Positions 96 to 28,271 of a stretch of 37,387 nt of DNA are shown here, piece after piece. The first letter of the stretch is position 1, and each line of letters begins with the position of its first letter. The position numbers and the translations under genes were made by a program. A model generated the notes under the pieces. It saw only the letters and a program-made list of their open reading frames with translations. It ran no database searches and was not told where the DNA came from. Source of the stretch: a virus; IMG/VR virus record IMGVR_UViG_3300002514_000092, positions 1 through 37,387 of that record. One strand, 5' to 3'.

Positions 96-353
96 ATGAA
101 ATTAACAAAATCAAAACTAAAACAAATCATTAAAGAAGAACTAACTTCAACCGGGATGGCTAAAAAATCCACAGACTTGGATGCAGCAAGAGCCGCCGGC
201 AGATCACGTGATCAGATTGGGCGAGTAGAAGCAATTAAGTTAATCGGAACCCTTGAAGATATGGGTTACATCGTGTCAATGGGCGCAGTCAATCAACTAA
301 CTGATCTTCTTCAAGCAATGGAACAATCTGAAGATGTTCGTCACGGAGGGTAA
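96..353 (+). CDS. Tagged small protein (ITK-type N-terminal peptide), 85 aa
   Basis: First visible member of the tagged array. Residues 1-15 (MKLTKSKLKQIIKEE) are the shared basic amphipathic peptide: alternating Lys/Thr, then a helix with II at 11-12 and an acidic end. An I-x-E tripeptide (IKE) lies at 12-14. The rest (residues 16-85) is unrelated to the other members and predicted helical, with a DAARAAGRSRDQIGRVEAIKLIG segment. It opens 5 bases after the preceding stop, and the next gene starts 1 base after its TAA. I do not recognise the body. The likely role, by analogy with T4 internal proteins, is packaging in the virion and co-injection; this is inference. Confidence 0.75.
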   Translation: MKLTKSKLKQIIKEELTSTGMAKKSTDLDAARAAGRSRDQIGRVEAIKLIGTLEDMGYIVSMGAVNQLTDLLQAMEQSEDVRHGG

Positions 354-354
354 A

Positions 355-747
355 ATGAGAATCACAAAACGACAACTAAGACGAATCATCAAAGAGGAAA
401 GGACGAAGCTCCTAAAAGAGGCGCCGGCGCCATTACCTATGAAGTCTAGGGCCGACCCTGTTTTTGCTAGCTTGATCAAGGGCTTGATCAAGGAACAGTC
501 TAGAGCAAAATCTGAAGGTGAATTGCAGGGTGATCTTGCAAGTATAATTGATGCAATCGAGTCAGTTGCCTTTGAAATGTATGGCCTAGAAGATCCAGGC
601 AACCCAGGCGCAGCAACTGGAGACGAAATGGCGAGAGGTCTAGAAGCACAAGTCGAAAGACTAAGCACATTCTTTGATCAGCTAGAAGCATATTTCGTTA
701 CAATTGATGATATGAGCGGAAGGAACCCAGGCGGAAGTATAGGATAA
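355..747 (+). CDS. Tagged small protein, 130 aa
   Basis: The protein starts MRITKRQLRRIIKEERTKLL and runs into LKE at residues 20-22, a consensus T4-type prohead-protease site (L/I-x-E). A proline/alanine stretch (APAPLP) follows, then a helical, acidic body with no recognised domain. ATG 355 was chosen over the in-frame ATG at 334. The tag begins exactly there, and a GGAGGG ribosome-binding site sits 5-10 bases upstream, inside the end of the previous gene. The stop overlaps the next start (TAATG at 745-749), so translation is probably coupled. Confidence 0.8.
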   Translation: MRITKRQLRRIIKEERTKLLKEAPAPLPMKSRADPVFASLIKGLIKEQSRAKSEGELQGDLASIIDAIESVAFEMYGLEDPGNPGAATGDEMARGLEAQVERLSTFFDQLEAYFVTIDDMSGRNPGGSIG

Positions 748-1895
748 TGAAGAGACGCTCCCAACATGTACTTGAGGAACAACTTATTAGAGAGTGTGTT
801 CGAAGTCTGTTAATAGAGATCGGGGTTCTCGACAAGTTTAAGGGTTGGATAGAGGAAGTCCCCGGGGAAGCAAGAAAAATTTGGTCTAGACTTAAGCAAG
901 AGGCTATGGAATCCAAAGATCTCGCCGTTATTCTCATGAAGATGGCATCCGGGAAAGAGGTCAGTGACGAAGAAAAAATGGCGGTCCAGGATCAACTAGC
1001 TGACATTGGCAAGGCCGGTGTATTTGGTGCATCTTTAGTGGCACCCGGGTTGTGGCCACTGGTTGCTGATATCTTTATGATAGGTGCGGAAGAGACCGGC
1101 GTATCATTTAGGCCTTCTTCATTTGAAGAGTGGGAACCCTTTATAGACGAACCGGTTGATGTAGAAGCAGCAAAGCCGGATGGTGTGGCTGCTGGTGAAA
1201 AGGAAGGTAAAGATTTGAAAGAGAGTATAAGGATTACTAGAAATAAATTACGAGGGATTATAAGAGAACATCTTCTGCTAGAACAACAAGAGATGCTTTC
1301 AATACTCGCAGACCCTGGCCAGCATTCGAAAGGCAGCTTAGAATATATTCAAAATAAAATTGCCAATTATGCCCTTAACAACGATATCACCGGCGCACTT
1401 AAAGATCCTGATATCGGGGGGAGTAGCGATCTAGATCTAGATATAGACGAAATGAGGCCATGGATAAAACGTGTTGGAGACCCTGCATGGTTGGGTAAAG
1501 ATCATGTCGCCCCTCCCAATTGGGATCCTAAAGCCGTATCCAGCTTTTTATCCAGGTTGGAAAATGCATGGTATGATAGGCAAAAACAAGCGACAGATCT
1601 AGGGCACCGGTCCGGACAGGCTACAAAAGAAAGAGAAATTATAGGTAACGCATTGACAATGGATTATGTAATGCCTGATGATATCAAAGGCCTCAAATTC
1701 CAGATTCGACGTACAGGCGGTGCACCAAGTAATATTAATATTGAAGACGATGGTATGGTGTCCAATATTAGAGCAGAAGATGCAACTCGCGCCGGCCTAA
1801 CACTGGATGATATTATTAAGGTCCTTCGTGACGGTGGTGCAAAAGAGCGAAAGAAGCAGAGGCCAATTAAACACACACCACCGACATATGACTAG
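747..1895 (+). CDS. Large doubly tagged protein, 382 aa
   Basis: The longest array member carries two different tag-like peptides. Residues 9-24 (LEEQLIRECVRSLLIE) are a second tag type, ending in LIE; the same type recurs in the genes at 16072 and 19417. Residues 161-179 (IRITRNKLRGIIREHLLLE) are an internal copy of the common ITK-type tag, ending in LLE. Between them, residues about 75-115 resemble a short LETM1-like pattern: SDEEKMAVQDQL, then a hydrophobic APGLWPLVADIFM stretch. That similarity is weak. The C-terminal 200 residues have no recognised domain. The layout suggests two tagged genes fused head to tail. The gene is translationally coupled to its predecessor by TAATG. Confidence 0.75.
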   Translation: MKRRSQHVLEEQLIRECVRSLLIEIGVLDKFKGWIEEVPGEARKIWSRLKQEAMESKDLAVILMKMASGKEVSDEEKMAVQDQLADIGKAGVFGASLVAPGLWPLVADIFMIGAEETGVSFRPSSFEEWEPFIDEPVDVEAAKPDGVAAGEKEGKDLKESIRITRNKLRGIIREHLLLEQQEMLSILADPGQHSKGSLEYIQNKIANYALNNDITGALKDPDIGGSSDLDLDIDEMRPWIKRVGDPAWLGKDHVAPPNWDPKAVSSFLSRLENAWYDRQKQATDLGHRSGQATKEREIIGNALTMDYVMPDDIKGLKFQIRRTGGAPSNINIEDDGMVSNIRAEDATRAGLTLDDIIKVLRDGGAKERKKQRPIKHTPPTYD

Positions 1896-1958
1896 GTTAA
1901 ATAAAGCGTACAAAGATAATTAAGAAAAGAACAAAAGTTTTTAAAAGGAGAAACTATT

Positions 1959-2054
1959 ATGAAAAAGGTATTACACAAACTGGCAAATTTATTCAATAGC
2001 TCACACTGCTGCTGCTGCTGTGGTTGTTGCAGTTGCAAATCTGGTTGCTGCTAA
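1959..2054 (+). CDS. Cysteine-rich micropeptide, 31 aa
   Basis: ATG 1959 follows a strong AAAAGGAG site at 1943-1950 and encodes 31 residues, 10 of them cysteine. They lie at 17-21, 23, 24, 26, 30 and 31, with only Gly, Ser and Lys between them. The first 16 residues form a short basic/hydrophobic helix (MKKVLHKLANLFNSSH). The composition is metallothionein-like or suited to binding soft metals or heme, but no named family fits. It lies between two tagged genes and its stop is 10 bases before the next start. Short tandem TGC codons raise the possibility of a slippage-generated run, but the ribosome-binding site and spacing favour a real gene. Confidence 0.6.
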   Translation: MKKVLHKLANLFNSSHCCCCCGCCSCKSGCC

Positions 2055-2064
2055 AAGAAGTCTC

Positions 2065-2271
2065 ATGAAAATAACCAGATACCAGCTTAGAAAAATCATT
2101 CGTGAGTCCTTAGAAGAGAAATATGGGAAAGACTACTTATCAAAGACCCACACCGGTGGTGAGGGTGAAGAAGAAGACCCGGAGCTAGACTTTACGAAAG
2201 AAGAACTCGACGAGGGTGAGGCGCAAGACATTGACTACTGGTATCAGGTCGGCCGAAAGACAAAGCATTAG
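2065..2271 (+). CDS. Tagged acidic small protein, 68 aa
   Basis: The product starts MKITRYQLRKIIRESLEE, with LEE at residues 16-18 as the candidate protease site. The remainder is very acidic (EGEEEDPELDFTKEELDEGEAQD) and probably disordered. ATG 2065 was chosen over the in-frame upstream ATG at 2020 because the tag begins there and the upstream start would overlap the Cys-rich peptide gene. A purine-rich AAAAGAAG lies just upstream. The body is not recognised. Confidence 0.75.
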   Translation: MKITRYQLRKIIRESLEEKYGKDYLSKTHTGGEGEEEDPELDFTKEELDEGEAQDIDYWYQVGRKTKH

Positions 2272-2289
2272 AGTATTTAAGGAAGCAAA

Positions 2290-2583
2290 ATGAAAATCAC
2301 AAAACGACAACTTAAGAGAATTATTAAGGAAGAGAAAGCCAAACTTCAAGAGAGAACGCCTGCCGATGCCGGCATGGCTGCTGCTCGACATGAGGGCCAA
2401 GTCGACTATCAATGGTTAGCAGAGCGAGTTGATCAGCAGGCCCGGGCGTTAGAGCAGCTGCTGATGGATGCAGAGAGTGCAATGATAATGAATGATAATA
2501 AAAGCTTGGTCGATGATTTCGAAAAGCTAGTTGAAGATGTATTCCAGCTAGCAGTTACATTTGATCGTCTCGGTGGAGGTTAA
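2290..2583 (+). CDS. Tagged small helical protein, 97 aa
   Basis: Starts MKITKRQLKRIIKEEKAKL and runs into LQE at residues 19-21. The body is all-helical in appearance (WLAERVDQQARALEQLLMDAE, then VDDFEKLVEDVFQLAVTFD), so it may form a small helical bundle. A GGAAGC site lies upstream. The next gene begins one base after its TAA. The tag is nearly identical at protein level to the next gene's tag, but the codons differ at many synonymous positions. These are therefore old paralogous tags under protein-level selection, not a recent duplication. Confidence 0.78.
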   Translation: MKITKRQLKRIIKEEKAKLQERTPADAGMAAARHEGQVDYQWLAERVDQQARALEQLLMDAESAMIMNDNKSLVDDFEKLVEDVFQLAVTFDRLGGG

Positions 2584-2584
2584 G

Positions 2585-2854
2585 ATGAAAATTACGAAAA
2601 GACAATTAAAAAGAATCATTAAAGAGGAAAAAGCACGCCTCGTTAGAGAGATGAATCCTGACGGAACTATTTCTGATGGTGAAGATGAAATGCGAGATGA
2701 TTTCCTAACCGAGGTTGAGATGAAGATCGATGAACTAATGGAATTCGTGCATGCTTCGGCAAGACGAATCGGTGGAGACTTTAGAGCCCCTGGTATCAGA
2801 GCGCAGGCTAAAGATATTATACTAGCTAAAGTCAAGGCTTTCCGAAAGAGATAA
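2585..2854 (+). CDS. Tagged small protein, 89 aa
   Basis: Starts MKITKRQLKRIIKEEKARL; the tag ends LVRE, where the strict site would be IKE at 12-14. The body is acidic then basic (DGTISDGEDEMRDDFLTEVEMKIDEL, ending KVKAFRKR). ATG 2585 is preferred to the in-frame ATG 2561, which lies inside the previous gene. A GGAGGTTAAG site sits directly upstream. Unknown function. Confidence 0.78.
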   Translation: MKITKRQLKRIIKEEKARLVREMNPDGTISDGEDEMRDDFLTEVEMKIDELMEFVHASARRIGGDFRAPGIRAQAKDIILAKVKAFRKR

Positions 2855-2856
2855 TA

Positions 2857-3309
2857 ATGAAAATTACGAAGAAGCAACTTAAACATATTATCAAAGAAGA
2901 GAAGTCTAGACTTCTTAGAGAGCAATGGGACGACATTGATACAGGTTCACCCTTGATCGAATTTGCCCGGGCTTACAGAGGCTTGGGTGATGCTGTCGCC
3001 TCCCAGGTTGATGCTGTGGTCGGTGCCTATATCACTGGAGCCGGCGGCGCCGGAAGAGATGATTTTACCGAAACTGTTTATGAACAAAATCCCAATGCAA
3101 TTGATATGGCCATGGATAGATTGGGCCGAGTGCTTCGTTATGGTGATCTTGGTGGTGAGGGTGAAATGATCCTTGAAGCACTTGAGGCCGCGCAAACGAT
3201 TAATTTGCAGGGTGATGAAGATGATATTAAAAACGAGGGTACTTCCCTCGAAGACATGCCTGATGCATGGCGACAGGTGTTGGGCAAATGCCTAAAGGAT
3301 ACAAAGTGA
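2857..3309 (+). CDS. Tagged small protein, 150 aa
   Basis: Starts MKITKKQLKHIIKEEKSRLL, ending in LRE (residues 20-22). The body has a small-residue-rich stretch (YITGAGGAGRDD) flanked by helices and ends KCLKDTK. It opens 2 bases after the previous stop and overlaps the next gene by a GTGA junction. The body is not recognised. Confidence 0.78.
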   Translation: MKITKKQLKHIIKEEKSRLLREQWDDIDTGSPLIEFARAYRGLGDAVASQVDAVVGAYITGAGGAGRDDFTETVYEQNPNAIDMAMDRLGRVLRYGDLGGEGEMILEALEAAQTINLQGDEDDIKNEGTSLEDMPDAWRQVLGKCLKDTK

Positions 3310-3581
3310 ATATTACAAAGAAACAGCTTAAAAGAATCATCAAAGAAGAGAAAGCTAAGCTACAAGAAGCATATGAATATAATCCTATCGATGAGATGTA
3401 TTTGATGCTTGATCACCTTCAAAAAGCGCAGATGATTGCAGAAGAAATTGTGAAATACTCTGAACGTGATCCAGCATACGAGGAGTTCGGTCATCCTTTC
3501 TTTTCTTTCTCTAACCAATTAAAGAAACTTATGGCTCCTGTCGGTTCCCAGGCAGATAAAGCGTATAAACAAGGAAAGTAA
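3306..3581 (+). CDS. Tagged small protein with GTG start, 91 aa
   Basis: The tag reads (M)NITKKQLKRIIKEEKAKL and then LQE, beginning at GTG 3306, which overlaps the preceding TGA (GTGA). An in-frame ATG at 3267 would add 13 residues before the tag and overlap the previous gene by 43 bases, so GTG is preferred. The body is helical with aromatic residues (YEYNPIDEMYLMLDHLQKAQ). Unknown function. Confidence 0.75.
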   Translation: MNITKKQLKRIIKEEKAKLQEAYEYNPIDEMYLMLDHLQKAQMIAEEIVKYSERDPAYEEFGHPFFSFSNQLKKLMAPVGSQADKAYKQGK

Positions 3582-3582
3582 G

Positions 3583-4287
3583 ATGAAAATTACCAGACGA
3601 CAATTAAGAAAGATTATTCAAGAGACTAGTGATCCCACACTAGCTATAATGGATTATAAGGAATGGGCTAGCGACTATATGGGTACCCCTTCCGGGGGAA
3701 ATTCATCATCAGTACTTGCAACTTATACAGTTGAAAATGCACTGGAAACTAAAGACTGGATGTCAATTGCCATGGGAATGGGACTTGATCCTCGTGAAGT
3801 TGGATTTGAGGTTCGTCGTCAACAAAAAGAACATGATACCGGTGGGACATTGAGTGATGAAGAAATATACCAACAAAGCTTTATGGAAAGCAGAGAAGTA
3901 AAACTAACTAAAAGACAGTTAAAAAGAATTATCAGGGAAGAAAAAACAAAGTTGCTGAAGGAGCAAACATCTGGCTGGGATAACTTTACGCCAGAGGGTG
4001 AAGCCGAGGACGAGATGTACTTAGCAGCAGAGGATATGCCCGAGCTTCTCAAAGCCATCGACCGCAATCAGAAGCATGCTGCTTCAACTACGGATCCTAG
4101 CATGGCTAGCATGTATGAAGATGATGCTATGTCGCTACAAACGATATATGATATGTCGGAAAAAGCGTTCGGGGCCATGCAGACCACTCCGCCTGAACAG
4201 CTTAGTGATTATATATACCGGCTTGACACTATAGTTCGAGAACAAATACCCGGTAATCTCTATGGCTGGATAGCAGGGGAATACTAA
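3583..4287 (+). CDS. Protein with two tags, apparent fusion of two tagged genes, 234 aa
   Basis: Residues 1-14 are MKITRRQLRKIIQE. A second, better-conserved tag sits at 107-127 (KLTKRQLKRIIREEKTKLL, then KE) and ends in LKE. It is preceded by MESREV, whose Met could once have been, or still be, an internal start. The two bodies (15-105 and 128-234) are unrelated to each other. The first tag lacks the usual LxE end. The structure looks like two neighbouring array genes joined by loss of a stop codon, or a deliberate tag-body-tag-body polyprotein that the prohead protease could cut. Confidence 0.75.
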   Translation: MKITRRQLRKIIQETSDPTLAIMDYKEWASDYMGTPSGGNSSSVLATYTVENALETKDWMSIAMGMGLDPREVGFEVRRQQKEHDTGGTLSDEEIYQQSFMESREVKLTKRQLKRIIREEKTKLLKEQTSGWDNFTPEGEAEDEMYLAAEDMPELLKAIDRNQKHAASTTDPSMASMYEDDAMSLQTIYDMSEKAFGAMQTTPPEQLSDYIYRLDTIVREQIPGNLYGWIAGEY

Positions 4288-4288
4288 G

Positions 4289-4573
4289 ATGAAAGTGCCG
4301 GCAATCAGTAGAAGAGAGTTAAGACGTATCATCAAAGAAGAAATTGAGTCGCTTAAGGTTGACTTGGAAAAACAGGGATCTGATGAAGAAGTAAAGATGG
4401 CCATCAATCAACTACAAACGATTGCAGCAACGGCCTTAGAGCTTAGTAAACTTATTCAGGACATGAACTATGTTCCAGAGTGGGGTGACGGAAAGATTGC
4501 TGTAACGCTGGATAAACTTACATCTTTAAGGTCATACATGGTCGGAAAATCGATCGACGATGAACTTTTTTAA
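4289..4573 (+). CDS. Tagged small protein ending the array, 94 aa
   Basis: Starts MKVPAISRRELRRIIKEEIE, a tag with a longer leader, then DLE at residues 25-27. The remainder contains a helical pattern (LQTIAATALELSKLIQDM), then a PEWGDGKIAVTLDKLTSLRSY segment. I associate that segment with other tagged small proteins in marine phage sequence, from memory and unchecked. The gene follows its predecessor by 1 base and is the last of the contiguous array. Confidence 0.72.
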   Translation: MKVPAISRRELRRIIKEEIESLKVDLEKQGSDEEVKMAINQLQTIAATALELSKLIQDMNYVPEWGDGKIAVTLDKLTSLRSYMVGKSIDDELF

Positions 4574-4607
4574 AAAATATAACATTTCTTCTAATAAAAT
4601 ATGAGCC

Positions 4608-4639
4608 CTTGTGTAAATCAATTTCAAGCGTGATACAAT
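4608..4639 (+). promoter_or_regulatory. Putative phage promoter P1 (20-base spacer class)
   Basis: CTTGTG at 4608-4613 and TACAAT at 4634-4639 are separated by exactly 20 bases, and TGA directly precedes the -10 box. The same arrangement occurs at four other places (7554, 8474, 11549, 15725). It lies in the gap after the tagged array and just before the next gene. The predicted transcription start is about 4646. Confidence 0.45.
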
Positions 4640-4646
4640 ACTAATA

Positions 4647-4856
4647 TTGAAAACGCTGATACAAAAGGGTGACGTAGTATTATTCGATCACATGGGATTG
4701 CAATATCGCGGCGTAGTATTAGGGATTAAGAAAGCTACTATTAATAGAAAAGATCACACTATAGTTACTGTAAAATCCACAACACACAAGCTATCGTTAG
4801 ATATCAATTTAACTCTTTTTCCGTCTAGGGTGAAAGTACTTTCCTATGATTCATAG
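4647..4856 (+). CDS. Small KGDVV-type (SH3-like) protein, about 69 aa
   Basis: The encoded protein reads KTLIQKGDVVLFDHMGLQYRGVVLGIKK, then a beta-rich tail. The (K/I)GDVV opening, the RGVV strand and the length match the small SH3/KOW-like barrel family repeated through this window. The only plausible start is TTG 4647 (or a near-cognate codon). It lies about 8 bases after the -10 box at 4634-4639, so the transcript would be almost leaderless; the start is uncertain. Unknown biochemical role. Confidence 0.5.
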   Translation: MKTLIQKGDVVLFDHMGLQYRGVVLGIKKATINRKDHTIVTVKSTTHKLSLDINLTLFPSRVKVLSYDS

Positions 4857-5058
4857 TAAGACGCACCATCTATTGTCTCATGGGGCCCGGTATGATTCAG
4901 TATTTTTATACAACAGTTATGATTATCTTTCGCATGTATAACATATTTGCATTGTGGCGTACCTTCCTTAAGACTCATTATGCTTTTATACAAACGCATG
5001 ATAATTGTTTTAATCATGATCTTAATTATTCTGACACACTATCTTAGGACTTAACAAA

Positions 5059-5490
5059 ATGGATTATAGCAGAGATTTTTTACACGTCGACTTGAAGACA
5101 TATTCTAAAATACTCGATTGCCTTATGAATAATAATAAGATTAAAGCCATTAAAGCGTTACGTGATCATACCGGAGGTAGTCTTAAAGAGGCAAAGTGGG
5201 CAGTTGACTTATTACACCATGAAAAAATTAGTACGTCTTCAGCCGGTGTTCCGCCCAAGGAAGCCAAGCGTATATTGACCGGGCCACAGATTGTTCATGT
5301 AGTATTAGACTATGGTGAAGGCCCGGTAGAGATTGATATGGAAAACATGCAATTAAGAGCGCTAAGTGAACTGGGGCGCCTAGGTGTGCATACATGTACT
5401 AAGATGCTTGAATTAGTAGAAATTTTTGAGGCAATTATGTGTGGAAAGAAGATAAAGATTGAAGATACAGACGAAGGAGACAACCAATGA
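5059..5490 (+). CDS. Protein with ribosomal L7/L12 C-terminal-like motif, 143 aa
   Basis: Residues about 25-52 (NKIKAIKALRDHTGGSLKEA, then KWAVD) match the signature of the bL12 C-terminal domain (K-I-x-VIK-x-(V/I)R-x-x-TG-x-(S/G)LKEAK-x-(L/A)V). That surface recruits translation factors on the ribosome. The rest (60-143) contains a strand-rich segment (QIVHVVLDYGEGPVEIDMEN) and a helical tail with no recognised domain. It may mimic L7/L12 or simply use the same fold, as several non-ribosomal proteins do. The stop overlaps the next start by ATGA, so the downstream genes are probably cotranslated. Confidence 0.65.
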   Translation: MDYSRDFLHVDLKTYSKILDCLMNNNKIKAIKALRDHTGGSLKEAKWAVDLLHHEKISTSSAGVPPKEAKRILTGPQIVHVVLDYGEGPVEIDMENMQLRALSELGRLGVHTCTKMLELVEIFEAIMCGKKIKIEDTDEGDNQ

Positions 5491-5699
5491 AAGATAAAAC
5501 ACCATGCTATCCCGATTTTGAGCAATCATTTTTGTTCGAAGATTATGAAAATATAAAGACGGTTCCCCAGGCCTGGTTAATTGCAACACGTAACATGAAA
5601 GGGAACATTATTTTTTATGATGATGAATATCCAGCGCTAACAAACAATGTTACAATTTATAAAAAGAGAATATCAAGTGAAGATCGGCGACGTGGTTAG
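5487..5699 (+). CDS. Hypothetical protein, 70 aa
   Basis: ATG 5487 overlaps the stop of the preceding gene (ATGA). The protein is aromatic-rich (FEQSFLFEDYENIKTVPQAWLIATRNMKGNIIFYDDEYPAL) and ends in a basic tail. Its last 23 bases overlap the next gene. No family recognised. Confidence 0.55.
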   Translation: MKDKTPCYPDFEQSFLFEDYENIKTVPQAWLIATRNMKGNIIFYDDEYPALTNNVTIYKKRISSEDRRRG

Positions 5700-5883
5700 T
5701 TTTTCAAGCGATAATGATAAAATGTATGTTGGTATAATTGTGGACATGGTAGATATCGATGAAAAGGGATCTGGTGTTTCACCCCCCCAGGTAGATATTT
5801 TATGGGAAAATGGGGATATAGAAACAACATGGCAAGATGAAATTAGTCTACTAATGGAAGAAAACATTAAGGTGTTAACATGA
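5677..5883 (+). CDS. Small (I)GDVV-type SH3-like protein with GTG start, 68 aa
   Basis: GTG 5677 gives (M)KIGDVVSFSSDNDKMYVGII, then VDILWENGDIETTWQDEISLL. This is the pattern GDVV, then (V/G)xI, then a W-x-(N/D)G turn, typical of the family in this window and of SH3/KOW-like barrels. An upstream in-frame start at 5647 is rejected because it would lie deep inside the previous gene and put residues before the conserved motif. The stop overlaps the next micropeptide start (ATGA). Confidence 0.62.
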   Translation: MKIGDVVSFSSDNDKMYVGIIVDMVDIDEKGSGVSPPQVDILWENGDIETTWQDEISLLMEENIKVLT

Positions 5884-5969
5884 GTGATACAGTGTTATTT
5901 ATCACCGCATGTACCATGGTTGGGATCATAGTATTGCTTCCCACATATTTTGAAAAAAAGAAAAAATGA
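5880..5969 (+). CDS. Single-span membrane micropeptide, 29 aa
   Basis: ATG 5880 overlaps the previous stop (ATGA) and the TGA overlaps the next start (ATGA), so the ORF is coupled on both sides. The sequence is MSDTVLFITACTMVGIIVLL, then PTYFEKKKK: one hydrophobic segment (residues 4-20) with a basic C-terminal tail, which predicts the N terminus outside and the C terminus in the cytoplasm. It directly precedes a GDLV-type gene, an arrangement repeated at 9254, 9800 and 11146. Confidence 0.55.
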   Translation: MSDTVLFITACTMVGIIVLLPTYFEKKKK

Positions 5970-6160
5970 ATATCGGCGATTTAGTAAAAATGAAATATGA
6001 AATGTGGTGGAAGGTTTATAATAGGAAGGCCGACTATATTTCTACACATGCCCTGGTTATTGATAGGGCACGAAATGCTATTAAGTTATTACATGCGGAC
6101 GGTCGTATTAAGTCCGGCCTCGTAGATCAGTGGGAAGTTGTAAGTACATGTGAAAAATAA
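5966..6160 (+). CDS. Small IGDLV-type SH3-like protein, 64 aa
   Basis: Starts MNIGDLVKMKYEMWWKVYN and later has HALVIDRARNAIKLLHADGRIKSG, then WEVV. The GDLV opening, central hydrophobic strand, DGR turn and closing W-E-V are the family pattern. It is coupled to the upstream micropeptide by ATGA and overlaps the following gene by 11 bases. Confidence 0.62.
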   Translation: MNIGDLVKMKYEMWWKVYNRKADYISTHALVIDRARNAIKLLHADGRIKSGLVDQWEVVSTCEK

Positions 6161-6368
6161 TACTTCCATAGGTGATCTGATTAGGTTTGGGTTTATTGAA
6201 GAAAATTGTGCTCTTAATGATCAGATTGCACTATACCTAGGGTGTGAATACAAAATTATGGGTGATGATATACCCATGCGTCATCATCTCATACTGCATC
6301 ATGGATGTAAAAGTATAAAAGTTATTGATGAAAGAGTATTTTCATATGCAACTGAGCTTGTTTCATGA
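6150..6368 (+). CDS. Small IGDLI-type SH3-like protein, 72 aa
   Basis: GTG 6150 gives (M)KNNTSIGDLIRFGFIEENCA, then IALYLGCEYK and ending ERVFSYATELVS. It belongs to the GDLV family, with a short extra N-terminal segment. It overlaps the genes on both sides by 11 and 4 bases. There is no alternative ATG before the conserved motif. Confidence 0.58.
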   Translation: MKNNTSIGDLIRFGFIEENCALNDQIALYLGCEYKIMGDDIPMRHHLILHHGCKSIKVIDERVFSYATELVS

Positions 6369-6595
6369 AAACAGGTGATATTGTTAGATTTGCAAAGTGG
6401 GAAGACATTGTGGACATTGATGATTGGTCAACAACACCCAAGAAACACATAGGATTATTAATATCATATGATAAGCTTATGAAATCAGCGTTAGTCTTAT
6501 ATGACTGTGAACTTTTTAAAATCCGGGGCCAATTGATAGAAAAAGCCGGAAAATTAATTAATATGTCAACAAAAAAAGAAGCCGACAAAGTTTAA
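6365..6595 (+). CDS. Small TGDIV-type SH3-like protein, 76 aa
   Basis: MKTGDIVRFAKWEDIVDIDD, then KKHIGLLISYDKLMKSALVLYDCEL. The GDIV opening and GLLI strand place it in the repeated small-barrel family. It is coupled to its predecessor by ATGA. It is the last gene before the long non-coding stretch. Confidence 0.62.
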   Translation: MKTGDIVRFAKWEDIVDIDDWSTTPKKHIGLLISYDKLMKSALVLYDCELFKIRGQLIEKAGKLINMSTKKEADKV

Positions 6596-6619
6596 AAATT
6601 AAACATTAGAATAACGTTG

Positions 6620-7316
6620 AATATAACTTACACATAGCCTTTAAGGCTGGCTCTTTGAAAGAATTGAAAGATACACCCATGTTCTCGGGTTATAAAATTC
6701 AGGTGGAATTACTGGCCCCTGTACATTGGCGAAAGCTAATGATAGAGAAAACCTTGATTGGGAAAGTAGCGTTCTTACGTTATGCCGCCCAACTAAGAGA
6801 GGGAACAAGTTAAGGAGAGTGGAATTTCCGAAGTTGTTCAGTGATTGGAAGTATGAGTCCCTATTCCGCTAGGGAAATACTACTGAAAATATCCACGGAC
6901 TTGTAGGTTCATCGTGGAAACGGGATAAGGGCAAACCAAGACGCCGAAAGGTGATGAAAGTCTTGGGAAGAGGGCTTAAGCACCCTTAGAACTTAACTGT
7001 CATTGGCAGAAGTCTCTCTGATGAAACTGGCAACAGGGTCGTCGTCCCGAAAGGGGCTATGTGTACATTCTCCCAAGGATTGGAAGCATGGCGTGCTTAT
7101 GCGGGGGGAAGTGTACAGCTTACCCAACTGAGCGCAGAATGTTAGTGACAGTAGAACGTGCTGTTCCGTGGTTTTCACGAGCCAAGAACAGGGAGAAATC
7201 TCGTGAACGGTGTTACTTGCCGGTGTGTTCACATCTAACCCGAGAAGGGGACAGGCTCAAAAGGCTTGATGGTCATGAGAATTAAGGCGCCCGGGAATGC
7301 GGGGCGCTTTTTTTTT
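6620..7316 (+). ncRNA. Candidate large structured non-coding RNA, about 700 nt
   Basis: This stretch lacks credible genes but holds many perfect hairpins. AGCC 6635-6638 pairs with 6644-6647. AGTAT 6850-6854 and TCCCTA 6858-6863 pair with 6870-6875 and 6877-6881. TCCACG 6892-6897 pairs with 6913-6918. CCAAGAC 6936-6942 pairs with 6960-6966 and encloses a GAAA-capped stem. CCC 7046-7048 is capped by GAAA. TTCACGAG 7174-7181 pairs with 7200-7207. It is more GC-rich than its surroundings, repeatedly uses GNRA loops, and ends in a rho-independent terminator. Size and phage context fit the giant ornate classes such as GOLLD or ROOL. A group II intron relic is possible, but I see no domain V. Ends are approximate. 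Confidence 0.6.
7284..7316 (+). terminator. Rho-independent terminator of the structured RNA
   Basis: GCGCCC at 7287-7292 pairs with GGGCGC at 7302-7307, flanked by AAG on the left and followed by a run of nine T. It closes the long non-coding stretch only 10 bases before the next gene start. Confidence 0.8.
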
Positions 7317-7325
7317 GAGAAAATT

Positions 7326-7535
7326 ATGCATACCGGTGACTTAGTAGAATTTGAAAATCCCATCATGTCGCCAACAAACGGTGACCCATTCTACCGGTAT
7401 GTGAAAGGCGTCGGAATTCTTATAGATAAAAAAGAATTCATAATCAACAATTCCGCATATACGACCTACTCTATCTTTACAGAGGGTGTGATAAGAAACT
7501 ATAGTAGTGCGGGATGGGATGTCATAGCTATATAA
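7326..7535 (+). CDS. Small TGDLV-type SH3-like protein, 69 aa
   Basis: ATG 7326 gives MHTGDLVEFENPIMSPTNGD, then GVGILIDKKEFI, ending AGWDVIAI. This is the family pattern (GDLV, GxGIL strand, closing W-D-V). The in-frame ATGs from 7266 are rejected because they lie inside the RNA and its terminator. Since the terminator ends 10 bases upstream, expression needs readthrough or a start inside the RNA. Confidence 0.58.
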   Translation: MHTGDLVEFENPIMSPTNGDPFYRYVKGVGILIDKKEFIINNSAYTTYSIFTEGVIRNYSSAGWDVIAI

Positions 7536-7553
7536 TTTACATAAATTCACCAG

Positions 7554-7585
7554 CCTATGTCATAAATGTCCCCCACGTGTATATT
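7554..7585 (+). promoter_or_regulatory. Putative phage promoter P2 (20-base spacer class)
   Basis: CCTATG 7554-7559 and TATATT 7580-7585 with an exact 20-base spacer; GTG precedes the -10 box. It sits about 35 bases before the tagged gene at 7621. Its -35-like box is the most divergent of the five. Confidence 0.38.
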
Positions 7586-7620
7586 TAAAACTACAACACA
7601 ACATCCCTGGAGAGTGTAAC

Positions 7621-8235
7621 ATGAGAATTACAAAGCGACAATTAAGAAGAATAATTTTGCAAGAAACAAAGCGGTTATTCGAAGATACGGTTGATACTGA
7701 ACTTGATCATCTCAAAAAGAATATAGGAGATGATATCGAGCATATTAGAGACCTTAAGGATGACATTAAAGATGATCATGAAGAGGAGCTCCATGCGGAA
7801 AAAGAGAAAGAAAGAAAAGATGAGTCGCGTCGACGGATGAAACGACAGTTACGTAATATCGTTCGTCGTGTAATGAAAGAGGAACACCAGGGATACGATG
7901 CTCGTGAAGATGAGCACTTGGCTGCGCTTCATGGTGCAGCAGCAGATCATGAACAAGATTATCATGATCGCAGAGATGATGCTGGGTTTGAAGATAGAGA
8001 TGATGCTACCCACCATGTGCATCACCATCACCACCACCACGATGACCAGGGCTATGATGCACGTGAAGATGAGCGCCTGGCAGCTGAGCATGGTGCTGAG
8101 GCAGCACACGACCAGGATTATAAAGACCGTCGTGATGATGCCGGCTTTGAGGTACGTCATGAATCTAAGCAACGGCGCGCTCTTAAAAGAAAACTAGCCC
8201 GCAAAATTCGTGAGACTCTACGAAGAAAGCGATAA
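7621..8235 (+). CDS. Doubly tagged protein with tandem repeats and a histidine run, 204 aa
   Basis: Residues 1-21 are a tag (MRITKRQLRRIILQETKRLF, then E) ending in LFE. Residues 24-70 are a charged, coiled-coil-like stretch. Residues 72-88 (RMKRQLRNIVRRVMKEE) are a second tag. Two 34-residue repeats follow at 91-124 and 144-177 (GYDAREDE, then LAA-HGA, then QDY-DRRDDAGFE). Between them, 131-140 is HHVHHHHHHH, a natural histidine run that could bind metal. The C terminus is strongly basic. The protein has a CTGGAGAG site upstream and its own promoter-like site. It is coupled to the next tagged gene by TAATG. The function is unknown; binding of nucleic acid or divalent metal is inferred from composition only. 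Confidence 0.75.
   Translation: MRITKRQLRRIILQETKRLFEDTVDTELDHLKKNIGDDIEHIRDLKDDIKDDHEEELHAEKEKERKDESRRRMKRQLRNIVRRVMKEEHQGYDAREDEHLAALHGAAADHEQDYHDRRDDAGFEDRDDATHHVHHHHHHHDDQGYDAREDERLAAEHGAEAAHDQDYKDRRDDAGFEVRHESKQRRALKRKLARKIRETLRRKR
7891..8151 (+). repeat. Two 102-base coding repeats separated by a His-codon run
   Basis: The copies at 7891-7992 and 8050-8151 encode the same 34-residue unit with a few substitutions. The spacer holds the CAY codons of the histidine run. DNA identity is moderate, so the duplication is not very recent. Confidence 0.75.
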
Positions 8236-8444
8236 TGAAAATATCAGAAAGCAGACTAAGAAGTATCATTCGTTATGTATTAGCTGAAGATAAGTCTGGT
8301 AAGGGAAAGTGTCCGGAATCCGGATGCGTCACTGACAGGGATGGAAAGTGGAGAATTATCTCTAACAAGACCGGAAAACTTTGGCCTCAGACATATGATA
8401 CTAAAGAAGATGCAGAAGATGCACTTAAGGCATATCACGCCTAA
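8235..8444 (+). CDS. Tagged protein with a small W-R-I/ISNKTGK domain, 69 aa
   Basis: Residues 1-18 (MKISESRLRSIIRYVLAE) are a tag ending in LAE. After a Gly/Lys linker with two cysteines (CPESGC), the C-terminal 35 residues (KWRIISNKTGKLWPQTYDTK, then EDAEDALKAYHA) form a compact domain. I associate that domain with other phage proteins; the function is unknown. It is a clear case of a tag joined to an independent module. ATG overlaps the previous TAA (TAATG). Confidence 0.72.
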   Translation: MKISESRLRSIIRYVLAEDKSGKGKCPESGCVTDRDGKWRIISNKTGKLWPQTYDTKEDAEDALKAYHA

Positions 8445-13986: not shown

Positions 13987-14604
13987 ATGAAATTAAAAAC
14001 ATCAATATTGTTATCTATGATCCCCTTGATATTTTTCACGTCGGCTAATTTAAACGCATATGCCGGCGTGATTAGCAAGAGTTCACCGATATCTTATAAA
14101 GAAATTGCCGATATCGCTCTTAAGCGATGTAAAAATGCAAAAGAAAGATATCGCGATCCCAAGTTAATTTGGGGTATCATCGAGATAGAAAAAAAACATA
14201 GTGTACCTCCCAGTATGAGAGGAATGTTGTTGGCATCAGCATGCATGGAATCCGGATATAATCCCAATGCAGAGGGTGATCACAGGTTTAGCAAGAAAAA
14301 GAAGCCAAAGGCAATAGGCTTGTTTCAAATGTGGTCATGGTGGGAATCAAAAAGGTGGGGATACGGTGTTGATCGCCGAAAGCCACTGGAGGCTGCAGAC
14401 GCATACATACGTCATATTAAAAAACAGTTAAAGAAAATTCGGTGTAAGTTTAGATCTGAAAAGAGAAGGTGGATAGCGGCATGGGTTACAGCAATTCGTG
14501 CTCCCAAGAGAGGCGGCAGGTGCAATGAAAAGCCAAAACATTATGGCCTGCTGAAGAAATGGCACAGGCTTATAGCGAAACAAAGAAAATCTAACAACAC
14601 ATGA
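13987..14604 (+). CDS. Secreted lytic transglycosylase (lysozyme-like), 205 aa
   Basis: Residues 1-26 form a signal peptide (KLK, hydrophobic core, AYAG). The SLT/lysozyme-like domain has MLLASACMESGYNPNA with catalytic Glu88, then AIGLFQM at 109-115, the transglycosylase GLFQ motif. The C terminus is rich in Lys and Arg, favouring contact with the envelope. It would cleave the glycan strands of peptidoglycan in the periplasm and probably serves host lysis. No holin is identified, although several membrane micropeptides occur nearby. The stop overlaps the next start by ATGA. Confidence 0.82.
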   Translation: MKLKTSILLSMIPLIFFTSANLNAYAGVISKSSPISYKEIADIALKRCKNAKERYRDPKLIWGIIEIEKKHSVPPSMRGMLLASACMESGYNPNAEGDHRFSKKKKPKAIGLFQMWSWWESKRWGYGVDRRKPLEAADAYIRHIKKQLKKIRCKFRSEKRRWIAAWVTAIRAPKRGGRCNEKPKHYGLLKKWHRLIAKQRKSNNT

Positions 14605-14810
14605 AACCAAAGAAAATATCAGGTATGTGCTCATTAATTCAACACCGAGCTACTAGCTGTATAGGGGTTGTAGTAGATGAATGGGAAGATGAATGTGGCA
14701 CTGGATGGTTACAAGTTCTTTGGCCACAAGATAGTACACAGGCGCAACTTTATGTAGCTGGCCCCGGGTTGGCTTGGGTACCGTCGATGGAAGTTAAAAG
14801 CATAGAATAA
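14601..14810 (+). CDS. Small SH3-like barrel protein, 69 aa
   Basis: MKPKKISGMCSLIQHRATSC, then IGVVVDEWEDECGTGWLQVLWPQD, then WVPSMEVKSIE. The SLIQH-x-x(n)-IGVVVDE strands, the GWLQVLW strand and the closing V-x-x-x-E-V match the barrel family, with GMCSLI in place of GDLV. It is coupled to the transglycosylase by ATGA. Confidence 0.6.
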   Translation: MKPKKISGMCSLIQHRATSCIGVVVDEWEDECGTGWLQVLWPQDSTQAQLYVAGPGLAWVPSMEVKSIE

Positions 14811-14837
14811 TATCATGCTTAATGAGAGAGTACTAGT

Positions 14838-15023
14838 ATGAATATAAAAAATAAAATAATGGATATATTAGAGAATTTTCAAGGATTTAGTCTTGAAAAC
14901 CCGACACACCGAAAAATGATTGCAGAAATCTTACATACCACGTTAAGTGAGAATATAAAAATAAACAAAAAAGATAATCACGAAAATGATGGTGTCTATA
15001 TTAAAAGCGAAACAGAGTGGTAA
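14838..15023 (+). CDS. Hypothetical protein, 61 aa
   Basis: ATG 14838 follows GAGAGAG. MNIKNKIMDILENFQGFSLE, then THRKMIAEILHTTLSENIKI: two amphipathic helices and a polar tail. No family recognised. Confidence 0.55.
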   Translation: MNIKNKIMDILENFQGFSLENPTHRKMIAEILHTTLSENIKINKKDNHENDGVYIKSETEW

Positions 15024-15027
15024 TGAC

Positions 15028-15270
15028 ATGCTGATATGTGAGCTAGAGCCTGGTGATTTACTTAAACCTGTGGAAGGTTATGAACTTTTAAAAAATTCAA
15101 GGAAAAGCTCTATAGATTTTTTGCATAGTCGAACTGTAGAAAAAAATGTACCATATATGATTTACGTACGTAAAAATAATGGGTCACAAAAATATGAAGT
15201 ACTGTTGGACGGCATGGTGTGGCGAATAAAGGGAAAAAATATAAAGTATCTTAAGAAAGTTAGTCCTTAA
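15028..15270 (+). CDS. PGDLLK-type small protein, 80 aa
   Basis: ATG 15028 gives MLICELEPGDLLKPVEGYEL and later KNVPYMIYVRKNNGSQKYEVLLDGMVWRIKG. The PGDLL opening and the strand-NG-strand-W pattern suggest the barrel family. The upstream in-frame ATG at 14986 overlaps the previous gene and is not used. Confidence 0.55.
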   Translation: MLICELEPGDLLKPVEGYELLKNSRKSSIDFLHSRTVEKNVPYMIYVRKNNGSQKYEVLLDGMVWRIKGKNIKYLKKVSP

Positions 15271-15278
15271 TTATATCG

Positions 15279-15710
15279 ATGAAAAAATCTATAGACAGTA
15301 TTGATCCTTTAAATGATGAAATTGTCGTGCATTCATATTTTGATCCGGAAGTTACCATAGCAATAATTTACCCGGGATCTCCAACTTATCCTGCCATGGC
15401 CGAGTTCTTTAAAGATACCGGCGTAGCTTTTTGTATGTATGACAAAAAAATTATTGTGATTGACGGCGCACAAGCAGACCAAGAGTGGTTTACGCCAGAG
15501 CATTTAAGAGTTATAGAGGCTCATGAAGTCGGACATATAATAGCAGAACACAATCATAAAAAAGAAGAATGCAAAGATATCGAGAGAGAAGCTGATCAGA
15601 TAGGGTATAAGCTCCTATGTGAGTCTCCTTTTAAAGAAGCTGTTATGCTTTATAGGGAAGAATACAACGCAAGATATGGTTGTATGCCTGAGGATGATGC
15701 CCCTGTATAG
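15279..15710 (+). CDS. Zinc metallopeptidase-like protein (zincin), 143 aa
   Basis: HEVGH at 82-86 inside VIEAHEVGHIIAEHNH is an HExxH zinc motif. EREADQIGYKLL (102-113) provides the downstream Glu ligand and the E-x-x-AD-x-x-(G/A) helix common to ImmA/IrrE-like (M78) and related small zincins. It is short, with no signal peptide, so probably cytoplasmic or packaged. ImmA-type enzymes cut regulators; the target here is unknown. Residues 1-75 are strand-rich and include IIVIDGA before the active site. Confidence 0.75.
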   Translation: MKKSIDSIDPLNDEIVVHSYFDPEVTIAIIYPGSPTYPAMAEFFKDTGVAFCMYDKKIIVIDGAQADQEWFTPEHLRVIEAHEVGHIIAEHNHKKEECKDIEREADQIGYKLLCESPFKEAVMLYREEYNARYGCMPEDDAPV

Positions 15711-15724
15711 ACTCAATTGCCTAT

Positions 15725-15756
15725 TTCATGTGCACTTTGATCTTCCATGCTATAAA
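15725..15756 (+). promoter_or_regulatory. Putative phage promoter P5 (20-base spacer class, late-like -10)
   Basis: TTCATG 15725-15730 and TATAAA 15751-15756 with the same 20-base spacer; TGC precedes the -10 box. The longer string TATAAATA (15751-15758) equals the T4 late promoter consensus, so a late-type promoter without need of a -35 box is an alternative. About 29 bases before ATG 15785. Confidence 0.45.
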
Positions 15757-15784
15757 TAACAATGGTAATAGAGGGACAGTCTAC

Positions 15785-16099
15785 ATGATGAATAAGTTGA
15801 CATTAGTATTTTTGATTGGATCATTTTTTATTTTTGGGTGCTTTGCGGGAAAAACATCAACAGTATATGCCATACAGCAACCACAAAAAAATGAAGCGTT
15901 TTATGTATATGATAGCATCACACATAAGCTAAATAGTGAGCATCATTTAGAAAAAAACATCGATAAACACATATTTATAACCACACCCATATGGGTTGAA
16001 CCTATGGGGGACGATAAATTATATGCTAAGCCACAAAAGATGGTGTGGCAAGTCAACGAAGAGACTAATAAGTGGACAATAGAGATCATAAAACGATAA
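15785..16099 (+). CDS. Putative lipoprotein, 104 aa
   Basis: ATG 15785 (or 15788) follows GAGGGAC. The N terminus MMNKLTLVFLIGSFFIFGCF is a signal peptide with a lipobox-like IFGC; cleavage after a later VYA is an alternative. The mature part is polar (HHLEKNIDKHIFITTPIWVEPM). A phage lipoprotein could act in superinfection exclusion or spanin-like lysis; the sequence does not decide. The in-frame start at 15728 lies inside the promoter and is rejected. Confidence 0.62.
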   Translation: MMNKLTLVFLIGSFFIFGCFAGKTSTVYAIQQPQKNEAFYVYDSITHKLNSEHHLEKNIDKHIFITTPIWVEPMGDDKLYAKPQKMVWQVNEETNKWTIEIIKR

Positions 16100-16467
16100 G
16101 TAGCGTCGCATGTCTTAGAGAGTGTGTTCGAGAAATCTTATTAGAGGAAATTGGACGAAACTATAAAACGCTTGACAATGATCCTTATTCATGGGAAGAC
16201 TTTCCGGACATATACGTTAATATATATCCTATGACCGACGGCGGTCTATGGGCTGCCCAGGTTGATGTAGGGTTTGATGATAGCCTCTCAACACCCTTAA
16301 GAACGTTCGCTAGCGAAGCAGATGCACAATCATTTGCAAGATCAAAAGCAGAAGAAGCTAATCGGACCAGGATGAATTCTGGGATCCATACCGGTACACC
16401 TGACATGTGGCATAAAGACTATATCGATGGCTCAGTGTGGTCCACGGTGTCAAAACCAGCTAAATAG
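16072..16467 (+). CDS. Protein with type-2 tag (LRECVREILLEE), about 131 aa
   Basis: Near the N terminus, CLRECVREILLEEIG closely matches the peptide at residues 14-26 of the 747-1895 product (LIRECVRSLLIEIG). It ends in LLE/LEE, a prohead-protease-like site. The body has PDIYVNIYPMTDGGLWAAQV, then RTFASEADAQSFARSKAEEAN. GTG 16072 is the only start before the tag and overlaps the previous gene by 28 bases; the exact start is uncertain. Function unknown. Confidence 0.62.
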   Translation: MDNRDHKTISSVACLRECVREILLEEIGRNYKTLDNDPYSWEDFPDIYVNIYPMTDGGLWAAQVDVGFDDSLSTPLRTFASEADAQSFARSKAEEANRTRMNSGIHTGTPDMWHKDYIDGSVWSTVSKPAK

Positions 16468-19416: not shown

Positions 19417-20391
19417 ATGTCTATCACGTTAAATATTTTTGATTTTGATGATACATTGGCAAAGTCAGACGCCGTTGTAAGGGTCACACATGCTAATGGC
19501 GACATTAGTGAATTAACTAGCGATGAATTCGCAAAATATGTTCCTGATGATGGTGATGAATATAATTTCGATGACTTCGAAATATATCCCGTCAATGGAC
19601 AACCCATCAAGTCATCATTTAAAAAGTTAAATGATGCAATTTCTGCCGGTGGGATTAATAATACAGTTATCTTAACAGCTAGAAGCAACGGCACACCAGT
19701 CAAAGAATTTTTAGTTGATCATGGAATTGATCCTTCTATTAATGTTATGGCCGTAGGATCCAACAATCCACTTGATAAAGCATTATATGTTCAAGACAGG
19801 ATCTTTAAAGATGGTTATACACATGTTCATGTCTTTGAAGATAATATCAAAAATATTGATGCAATATCTGCAATTACTAAGAAAAATAATGTTGGATTTT
19901 CTTATACGCTGGTAGCTACGGAATCACGAAATCCTTTAGCATTCATAAAAAAATACGTACGAAATATATTGATTGAAATTATGAAAAATAATAAAGAAGA
20001 TAAGCCCCCAGGAGCCGGTTTTATAGTTTTAAAAAAAATCGAAGGACGACATCATGTATTAGGTCTTAAGATTAACGGCGCCTTTGATCTTCCCAAAGGG
20101 CAGCTTGATCCGGGTGAGGATACTCTAGAGGCAGCCATAAGAGAAACTTATGAAGAATCAGGAATAAGTGAATTAAACTTTAGGTGGGGCCTAAAATCTT
20201 TGAAAGTAAATCACCTGACACTGTATGTGGCAGAGACATCACAAGAGCCTTTTATAGCGCCTAATCCTGAGACCGGTGAGTATGAACATGAGTCAGCACA
20301 CTGGCTCTCATGGGACGAAATGGAGCGAGGAATTAAGCCTTATATGAGGGGCGCGCTCATAATTGCTAAAAACATTGTGGAAGGTAGTTGA
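19417..20391 (+). CDS. HAD phosphatase - tag-like linker - Nudix hydrolase fusion, 324 aa
   Basis: Residues 8-14 (FDFDDTL) are HAD motif I (Asp9, Asp11), ILTARS (85-90) motif II, and VFEDNIKNIDA (139-149) the motif IV acids, so residues 1-165 form a HAD-type phosphatase. Residues 173-187 (PLAFIKKYVRNILIE) resemble the type-2 tag and end in LIE. Residues 196-324 form a Nudix hydrolase whose box is complete from Gly228 to Ile250 (Gx5E, x7, REUxEExGU with E234, R242, E243, E246, E247). The enzyme could remove a nucleoside-diphosphate-linked group and then a phosphate; the substrate is unknown. The tag-like linker suggests possible proteolytic separation. Confidence 0.83.
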   Translation: MSITLNIFDFDDTLAKSDAVVRVTHANGDISELTSDEFAKYVPDDGDEYNFDDFEIYPVNGQPIKSSFKKLNDAISAGGINNTVILTARSNGTPVKEFLVDHGIDPSINVMAVGSNNPLDKALYVQDRIFKDGYTHVHVFEDNIKNIDAISAITKKNNVGFSYTLVATESRNPLAFIKKYVRNILIEIMKNNKEDKPPGAGFIVLKKIEGRHHVLGLKINGAFDLPKGQLDPGEDTLEAAIRETYEESGISELNFRWGLKSLKVNHLTLYVAETSQEPFIAPNPETGEYEHESAHWLSWDEMERGIKPYMRGALIIAKNIVEGS

Positions 20392-20423: not shown

Positions 20424-21599
20424 ATGTCAACGTTTAAAGAACATAAAACATCCGCAGATAGATCAGCATCAGATCGGCGTCGGCACAAGCAAAAAATAGA
20501 ACGGGCCATCAAAGATGGAATATATGATATTGTCGCTGATGAGTCGATAATTGGGCAGGACGGTAAAAAGACAATTCGGATACCCGTACGTGGTATTAAA
20601 GAATATCGCTTTATCTACGGGGATAACGAGTCTAACAAACAGGTGGGCTCTGCAAAGGGTAAAGATGTCAAAAGAGGACAGTCCGTAGGACAAGCACCCC
20701 AGCAATCTAAACCTGATGCCGGTGAACCCGGGAATGATGCCGGACAAGAGTATTATGAGGTAGAGATTACTCTTAATGAACTTGCGGAATATCTTTTTGC
20801 AGATCTAGAACTTCCGGATCTTGAAAAGAAAAGAATAAAAAATATCACCTCTGATAGTTTAAAGAGAAAAGGCATACGAAAAAAAGGGATTCGCCCTAGG
20901 CTGGACAAAAAGAAGACGGCCATCAATAGAATTAAGAGAAAAAAGGCTTCGGCGAGGGTAGATAATAGGCAAGAGGACGAAGAGCGCTTTACATTTCATG
21001 AAGAAGACTTGAGATACAAGCATATGAAACGCTCAAAAAAAGAATCTAGCAACGCTGTTATCTTTTTTATAATGGACATATCAGGCTCTATGACTAAGAA
21101 TAAGAAATTTTTAGCCAGAAGCTTTTATTTTCTGTTGTATCAATTTTTAAATCACAGATATGAGAATGTTGATATTGTATTTTTAGCACATGATACTAGT
21201 TCATATGAGGTCAATGAAGAACAATTTTTCACCCGAGGAAATAGCGGTGGAACAATTGTATCAACAGCACTACAACACGCGAATGATATAATTGGACAAC
21301 GTTACCACCCAGACTTTTGGAATATTTACTGCTTTCAGTGTTCTGACGGTGACAACTGGCCTTCTGACACTGATCAGTGCGTGGAGATTGCTAGATTACT
21401 AAAAGAAAAAACACAACTATATGCCTATTGTGAAATAGAGCCAACTGGAGAACGACCAATATACTCTGACGATGAATCTAGATTGTCTAATTGTTTTTCA
21501 CCTTTATGTGATAAGCAATTTAAGATTGTCAGTATCAATAAGAAGTCAGATATCTGGTCGGCTTTTCGAAAAGTCTTTGGAGCGCGAATTAATGAATGA
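20424..21599 (+). CDS. yhbH: YhbH/YeaH-family (DUF444, UPF0229) protein, 391 aa
   Basis: The layout matches the family: an N-terminal arginine-rich segment (DRSASDRRRHKQKIERAIKD), a low-complexity Gly/Gln/Pro linker (about 75-108), and a C-terminal von Willebrand A-like domain with MIDAS DISGSM (218-223). Its length is near the usual 390-430. In bacteria it is encoded with PrkA and SpoVR, and the set is linked to sporulation in Bacillus and to starvation and stress in enterobacteria. Here it overlaps spoVR by 8 bases. The biochemical role of the family is unsettled. Confidence 0.88.
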   Translation: MSTFKEHKTSADRSASDRRRHKQKIERAIKDGIYDIVADESIIGQDGKKTIRIPVRGIKEYRFIYGDNESNKQVGSAKGKDVKRGQSVGQAPQQSKPDAGEPGNDAGQEYYEVEITLNELAEYLFADLELPDLEKKRIKNITSDSLKRKGIRKKGIRPRLDKKKTAINRIKRKKASARVDNRQEDEERFTFHEEDLRYKHMKRSKKESSNAVIFFIMDISGSMTKNKKFLARSFYFLLYQFLNHRYENVDIVFLAHDTSSYEVNEEQFFTRGNSGGTIVSTALQHANDIIGQRYHPDFWNIYCFQCSDGDNWPSDTDQCVEIARLLKEKTQLYAYCEIEPTGERPIYSDDESRLSNCFSPLCDKQFKIVSINKKSDIWSAFRKVFGARINE

Positions 21600-22899: not shown

Positions 22900-22921
22900 T
22901 TATGTTTAAGGGAGCATACTA

Positions 22922-28134: not shown

Positions 28135-28271
28135 CGAGTACCGGTATTATAAGAAAGCATATGCCTTCTTCATTAAAGACAATAAAGATAAAACATGACC
28201 ACACCAAACAATATGCTGTTGAGCGTAATATTTATGATGGCATGGAAAAAACATGTGATAAGGAGAACAAC

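Follow-up and report, generated by a model that had tools for sequence, protein, structure and literature searches.

Why should a row of otherwise unrelated viral genes all begin with the same short peptide? The question is raised by IMG/VR record IMGVR_UViG_3300002514_000092, positions 1-37,387 of which form the window analyzed here (37,387 nucleotides), whose source appears to be a large marine virus of bacteria. Eleven gene starts and two internal sites in the window encode one shared N-terminal peptide of 14-22 residues, called tag A in the following. We propose that tag A acts as a capsid-targeting propeptide in the manner of phage T4, though with a sequence unrelated to that of T4, and that it serves an unusually large and variable set of cargo proteins; we put the probability of this reading at about 0.82.

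All ten starts named in the initial annotation (96, 355, 2065, 2290, 2585, 2857, 3306, 3583, 7621 and 8235, with GTG at 3306) and the variant at 4289 (core at 4298) did translate to the peptide. A position-specific matrix applied to all six frames of the window returned 13 tag sites with 27-50 bits, against a maximum of 15 in 120 shuffled frames. Since the matrix was trained on most of the window's own copies, it is the larger tag set outside the window that provides independent support. Two of the 13 sites had not been reported before, internal copies at 1227 (open reading frame (ORF) 747-1895) and 3898 (ORF 3583-4287); these begin with ATA and GTA, respectively, and are therefore not gene starts. 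The statement that nearly all copies carry I-x-E at residues 12-14 held exactly for eight of the ten starts, the motif having slid in 7621 (13-15, ILQE) and in the variant 4289 (15-17) and being absent from 8235, which has LAE at 16-18 instead. A second L-x-E, said to be present in most, was clear in seven starts (355, 2290, 2585, 2857, 3306, 7621 and 8235).

The array is dense and lies on one strand, with stops and starts almost touching, as might be expected if the shared start were a DNA-level feature, such as the trace of a recent duplication, a site of recombination or a signal for the start of translation. Codon agreement at agreeing residues of the window tags was, however, 44% versus 40% expected from codon usage. 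This near-random choice of synonymous codons indicates that the peptide is conserved and that selection acts on it and not on the DNA. The two internal copies, moreover, retain the peptide without a start codon. The codon test already disfavoured a DNA-level origin, to which we now give virtually no credence.

Beyond the window, a degenerate DNA pattern of the tag matched more than 119 IMG/VR stretches. A profile grown from the window tags, run against phage records as the initial annotation had suggested, found tagged proteins to be widespread: 452 unique ones in 269 body clusters for a first set of loci and, with array regions added, 634 in 382 clusters, 312 of these being singletons. The bodies behind the tag have no common sequence. 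Whole relatives carried 2-48 tags, and one 17-kb stretch of a 202-kb relative held 28 tagged genes. The only near-invariant columns in 150 body-nonredundant proteins were M1, L8, I12 and E14, and tags that had not been picked by the DNA pattern kept L8 (74/76), I, V or L at residue 12 (76/76) and E14 (72/76). Residue 14 was E in 397 of 414 tagged proteins and never D; in T4, Asp at this position blocks processing and permits targeting (PMC9026906). The tag is almost absent from cellular genomes. Its pattern occurred in only three metagenome-assembled genomes among 84,980 bacterial and archaeal genomes; their contigs are dense in similar tagged genes, and two of the three bins also carry a head module with the S77 prohead protease and tag-like core genes. 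Searching phage records by tblastn with the bare 22-residue tag and with one whole tagged protein gave no match, and a literature search for this peptide found no paper describing it.

The body of 8235 was tagged in relatives and bore other N-termini in phage contigs that yielded no S77, and its similarity to these untagged homologues began past the tag, mostly at residue 21. In a structure model of this protein the tag was a low-confidence helix and the body a small folded domain with a predicted local distance difference test score (pLDDT) of 82-89, for which a fold search yielded weak likeness to small DUF1508-like domains only. The model of 2857 was poor (pLDDT 47). As for the internal tags, the portion of ORF 747 beyond its tag is orthologous to a stand-alone tagged protein (locus L365:5450-6103) and the second half of ORF 3583 to another (L359:8262-8609). 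We therefore read them as marking fusions of two tagged proteins, and cleavage there could free both parts. In several unrelated phages a D/H/K-rich charged protein precedes an 8235-like domain (L421:2932-3126 with the upstream ORF; L413:2454-2936), as it does at 7621-8444 in the window. Homology of 7621 to the charged proteins beside untagged 8235 homologues was considered and dropped, the similarity not being clearly above shuffles.

The junction of tag and body bears on cleavage. After the first site, a further [ILV]xE starting at residues 16-28 was found in 74% of tagged proteins versus 19% of body windows, the second I/L-x-E falling at about residues 20-22. The junction contained 302 [IL]xE versus 171 ± 9 in column-wise permutations (z about 15); the other residues tried after [IL]x (D, Q, K, R, N, S and A) gave no excess, and E alone was enriched. 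Windows deeper in the bodies showed no [IL]xE excess against permutation. The junction unit slides by one or two residues, yet its I/L-x-E form is retained, as expected of a protease site.

The bodies were also informative. In 411 tagged bodies [IL]xE reached 0.93 of the shuffled expectation, whereas Ex[IL], its reverse, and [IL]xD, [IL]xK and [IL]xQ were all at 1.30-1.48. Untagged proteins from these loci gave 1.21 for both [IL]xE and Ex[IL]. The ratio of [IL]xE to Ex[IL] was 0.69 (95% confidence interval (CI) 0.63-0.76) in tagged bodies versus 1.00-1.03 in untagged proteins, with low values (0.77 and 0.66) in each of the two phage groups. T4 served as positive control: mature IPI, IPII and IPIII contain zero [IL]xE, and gp22, which is degraded by the protease gp21, has 16 in 270 residues. 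In relatives, [IL]xE against its reverse amounted to 191:124 in scaffolds (ratio 1.5), 45:15 in capsid propeptides and 24:9 in core1, which together with core2 adjoins the protease gene. The array proteins therefore look like protease survivors and core1 like degraded core.

These counts bear on two other readings. The tagged array proteins could be filler of the prohead core or scaffold, like T4 gp67, gp68 and gp22, degraded by the protease and not delivered. The tag-like N-termini of core1 and core2, and the abundance of [IL]xE in core1 that a degraded core should have, are in line with this, but the array bodies behave in the opposite way to scaffold and gp22, are too numerous and variable, and in a few cases match enzyme or toxin-antitoxin families. 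We consider it unlikely. Alternatively, a tag that is basic, amphipathic and by prediction helical might direct proteins to some other phage-made place, be it a replication compartment, a membrane or a filament of the tubulin/FtsZ-like protein encoded in relatives, I/L-x-E being merely part of the helix. Such a helix should, however, also favour [IL]xD, [IL]xK and [IL]xQ at the junction, where E alone is enriched, and the bodies avoid [IL]xE only; the same avoidance was seen in the second phage group, which had not been selected for a tubulin-like gene. This makes a different destination very improbable.

A capsid-targeting propeptide also fits the company that the tag keeps. Of 40 records that were tagged or related, 29 had Pfam S77 (PF03420, T4 gp21) above cut-off, compared with 9 of 38 random contigs of at least 50 kb bearing transfer RNA genes, of which just two or three have a tag match. 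Wherever a tagged record contained the T4-type capsid gene gp23 it contained S77 too (15/15). The co-occurrence of tag and prohead protease foreseen by the initial annotation was thus observed, and the tag was not found mainly in genomes devoid of the protease: gp23 was missing from all 12 tagged records without S77, which look like fragments, and two of them end in or near the portal gene, as expected of fragments. Many S77 phages, T4 among them, do not have the tag, which is therefore a lineage marker. In relatives the head genes follow the order portal, core, S77, small genes, scaffold and capsid, as in T4. Genes adjacent to S77 start with variants of the tag (MAKISKSMLKGIVKECLVEILAEG; KLTPALLRKIVLEEK; MKINKSLLQKIIQEEL). 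Capsid proteins of 12 relatives have [VIL][LIV][RKS]E/[ASQ] at residues 59-61 (e.g. VLRE/A, the slash marking the putative cut), the T4 gp23 equivalent being FLTE/A at 65; gp23 loses 65 residues in maturation (PMC9958956). This capsid-protein motif is also that of IIKE and LLKE, the sites in the tag itself. Junction statistics, site avoidance with its T4 control, the capsid-protein site and the tagged head-cluster genes together support cleavage of the T4 type after (L/I)-x-E, as first suggested.

The head genes of relatives showed some features of their own. In record G024 (244,715 bases) the S77 gene (L207:1393-3120) is interrupted immediately behind GELDH by an intein-like insert of roughly 1 kb, which begins with CLSENAQIL and ends with TGN/S. 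In a 293-kb relative, two gp23-type capsid genes that start identically lie in tandem (L228:12270-14168 and 14262-16001). Beside the tagged S77-adjacent gene lies a small basic gene (L210:10974-11222; L229:6113-6340) annotated in a cultured Microcystis phage as ribosomal protein S21; for L210 the likeness was judged by eye.

A second N-terminal tag, tag B (M[NK]LLREYIRELLxE), occurs in the same genomes on other unrelated proteins, including tRNA-nucleotidyltransferase-like, GNAT-like and HAD-like ones, and ends in the same I/L-x-E site as tag A. A wider tag B motif, which also picks up some tag A and core1 genes, was found within the first 45 residues of 58 of 1424 genes versus 1 of 925 further in. 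Among 45 starts picked without requiring E, 34 had [ILV]xE at 12-14, and the exceptions had mostly slid by one residue. One tag B family with the motifs YRG, SW and ExE, like those of an R-S-E ADP-ribosyltransferase, was examined as a candidate for such an enzyme; the motifs were joined by no profile or PDB match, and the identity remains a lead. On other phage contigs (L413-L422), short proteins share N-termini such as MAYTQNNPLSRTSSPLL or NPFKQ in front of differing bodies, perhaps another tag system.

Several observations weigh against a T4-like capsid-targeting propeptide. The association with S77 may partly reflect shared ancestry, and the window itself has no head genes, S77 being seen in relatives only. 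The window's ten bodies alone, with few sites, show no avoidance (12:13), and for tag B bodies the ratio is 0.90 (CI 0.69-1.16). At the first site P1' is mostly E, versus A, S or G in T4, which makes the cut site ambiguous. The tag profile gave nothing in T4 at E<=10, and we see no sequence kinship to the T4 capsid-targeting sequence (CTS) MKTYQEFIAE; homology in the literal sense is thus not supported. For the cultured relative 'immuto', a Flavobacterium phage with three tag hits, a literature search for virion proteomics found none.

How the capsid-targeting propeptide would act can be sketched. The first residues would draw tagged proteins into the prohead core during head assembly. The S77 protease would then cut behind the glutamate of I/L-x-E, either at residue 14, at the second site near residue 22 or at both, as the sequence statistics suggest. 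By analogy with T4, the freed bodies may remain in the head with the DNA and enter the host on infection. The array would then constitute a collection of fast-changing cargo genes under one address label. Packaging, cleavage, injection and body functions are all things that we infer.

What the cargo does is less clear. PHROGs, Pfam and PADLOC searches of the tagged proteins returned mostly orphans, PADLOC giving nothing convincing, and because almost all bodies are orphans, we can only infer a role as injected effectors. Among 150 bodies, known families were matched once each by a zeta-toxin-like kinase, an L,D-transpeptidase, a RelB-like antitoxin and a ribosome modulation factor, which would fit proteins that act early on the host. 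Among the T4 internal proteins, Alt modifies RNA polymerase and IPI inhibits a restriction enzyme of the host. It seems to us an even bet that the payload of large marine T4-related phages is modular and hypervariable, with tens of packaged proteins per genome, hundreds of families and two interchangeable propeptides, used mostly for injected counter-defence or host takeover; it may be the largest such set for any phage group. Such a sequence label would allow the packaged proteins of an abundant uncultured phage group to be listed, and hundreds of orphan families would gain a predicted place, the head, and a predicted time, the first minutes of infection. Since T4 IPI blocks a restriction enzyme, the arrays would be a rich hunting ground for anti-defence proteins and are worth searching for them. 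The site-avoidance test is also a general means to spot proteins that must survive head maturation.

Table 1. Tagged genes and tag-like segments in the window (positions without prefix) and in related loci (L numbers).
Feature	Position	Strand	Remarks
Tagged ORF, 85 aa	96..353	+	MKLTKSKLKQIIKE/EL; single I-x-E at 12-14
Tagged ORF, 130 aa	355..747	+	Sites IIKE14, LLKE22; tagged ortholog L363:6149-6481, 59%
382-aa ORF	747..1895	+	N-terminus tag-B-like (LIRECVRSLLIE); tag A copy inside at 1227; read as fusion
Internal tag copy IRITRNKLRGIIREH	1227..1271	+	34 bits; first codon ATA
Tagged ORF, 68 aa	2065..2271	+	IIRE14
Tagged ORF, 97 aa	2290..2583	+	IIKE14, LQE21
Tagged ORF, 89 aa	2585..2854	+	IIKE14, LVRE22; tagged ortholog L361:7150-7413
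Tagged ORF, 150 aa	2857..3309	+	IIKE14, LLRE22; tagged orthologs in L371, L363
Tagged ORF, 91 aa	3306..3581	+	GTG start; IIKE14, LQE21; body 97% identical to tagged L362:15845-16120, from a 284-kb relative that has S77
234-aa ORF	3583..4287	+	N-terminal tag and internal tag 3898; read as two tagged proteins fused
Internal tag copy VKLTKRQLKRIIREE, then LLKE	3898..3942	+	First codon GTA
Tagged ORF, 94 aa	4289..4573	+	Variant tag PAISRRELRRIIKEE; I-x-E at 15-17
Tagged ORF, 204 aa	7621..8235	+	Body charged, D/H/K-rich; ILQE15, LFE21; tagged orthologs L359:14415-14996, L363:7052-7555
Tagged ORF, 69 aa	8235..8444	+	LAE18, then small folded domain
ORF with tag-B-like N-terminus (CLRECVREILLEE)	16072..16467	+	
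HAD-like + NUDIX protein	19417..20391	+	Tag-B-like segment (FIKKYVRNILIEI) links the domains; linker is a direct reading
Tag B loci	L129, L135, L147, L167, L173, L176, L360, L363, L425; window 16072, 747, 19417		
Tag B family with YRG/SW/ExE	L129:3783-4298, L130:672-1187, L147:14987-15517, L360:7602-8132		Would parallel T4 Alt

Elsewhere in the window, positions 20424-24850 hold a trio of DUF444 (YeaH), SpoVR and PrkA (YeaG) genes, a bacterial stationary-phase set found here in a phage. A phage-borne transfer-messenger RNA (27771-28134; tag ANDNVEYDYALAA) lies directly ahead of a gene for a divergent tubulin/FtsZ-like protein (28230-29351), which has counterparts in L130:11100-12089, L135 and L173; in relatives, a gene for a tagged zeta-toxin-like kinase directly follows the tubulin/FtsZ-like gene. 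No T4 late-promoter octamer was present near the array, the single exact match in the window lying elsewhere on the plus strand.

Prohead-protease-type propeptides like those proposed here are also known from SPN3US and phiKZ, where the prohead protease cuts them from ejected proteins; in SPN3US, gp53 and gp54 have diverged bodies but are identical over 15 N-terminal residues (PMC5694885). In these phages, however, the site is A/S-x-E, the propeptides mostly exceed 100 residues and few proteins carry them, whereas tag A has I/V/L-x-E and 14-22 residues. T4 gp67, gp68 and gp22 find their likeness in core1 beside S77, with its tag-like start and wealth of I/L-x-E, while the array bodies avoid this motif. 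The closest parallel is the T4 CTS of IPI, IPII, IPIII and Alt, cut by gp21: there, too, a short N-terminal propeptide ending in I/L-x-E precedes unrelated proteins, an S77 protease sits in a matching order of head genes, and the mature parts are poor in or free of I/L-x-E. The window-type tags differ from T4, which has a few, by their number (up to 48 copies per record), their often double sites, the existence of two tag types, the dense arrays and the fusions. On these grounds tag A would be a functional analogue of the T4 CTS.

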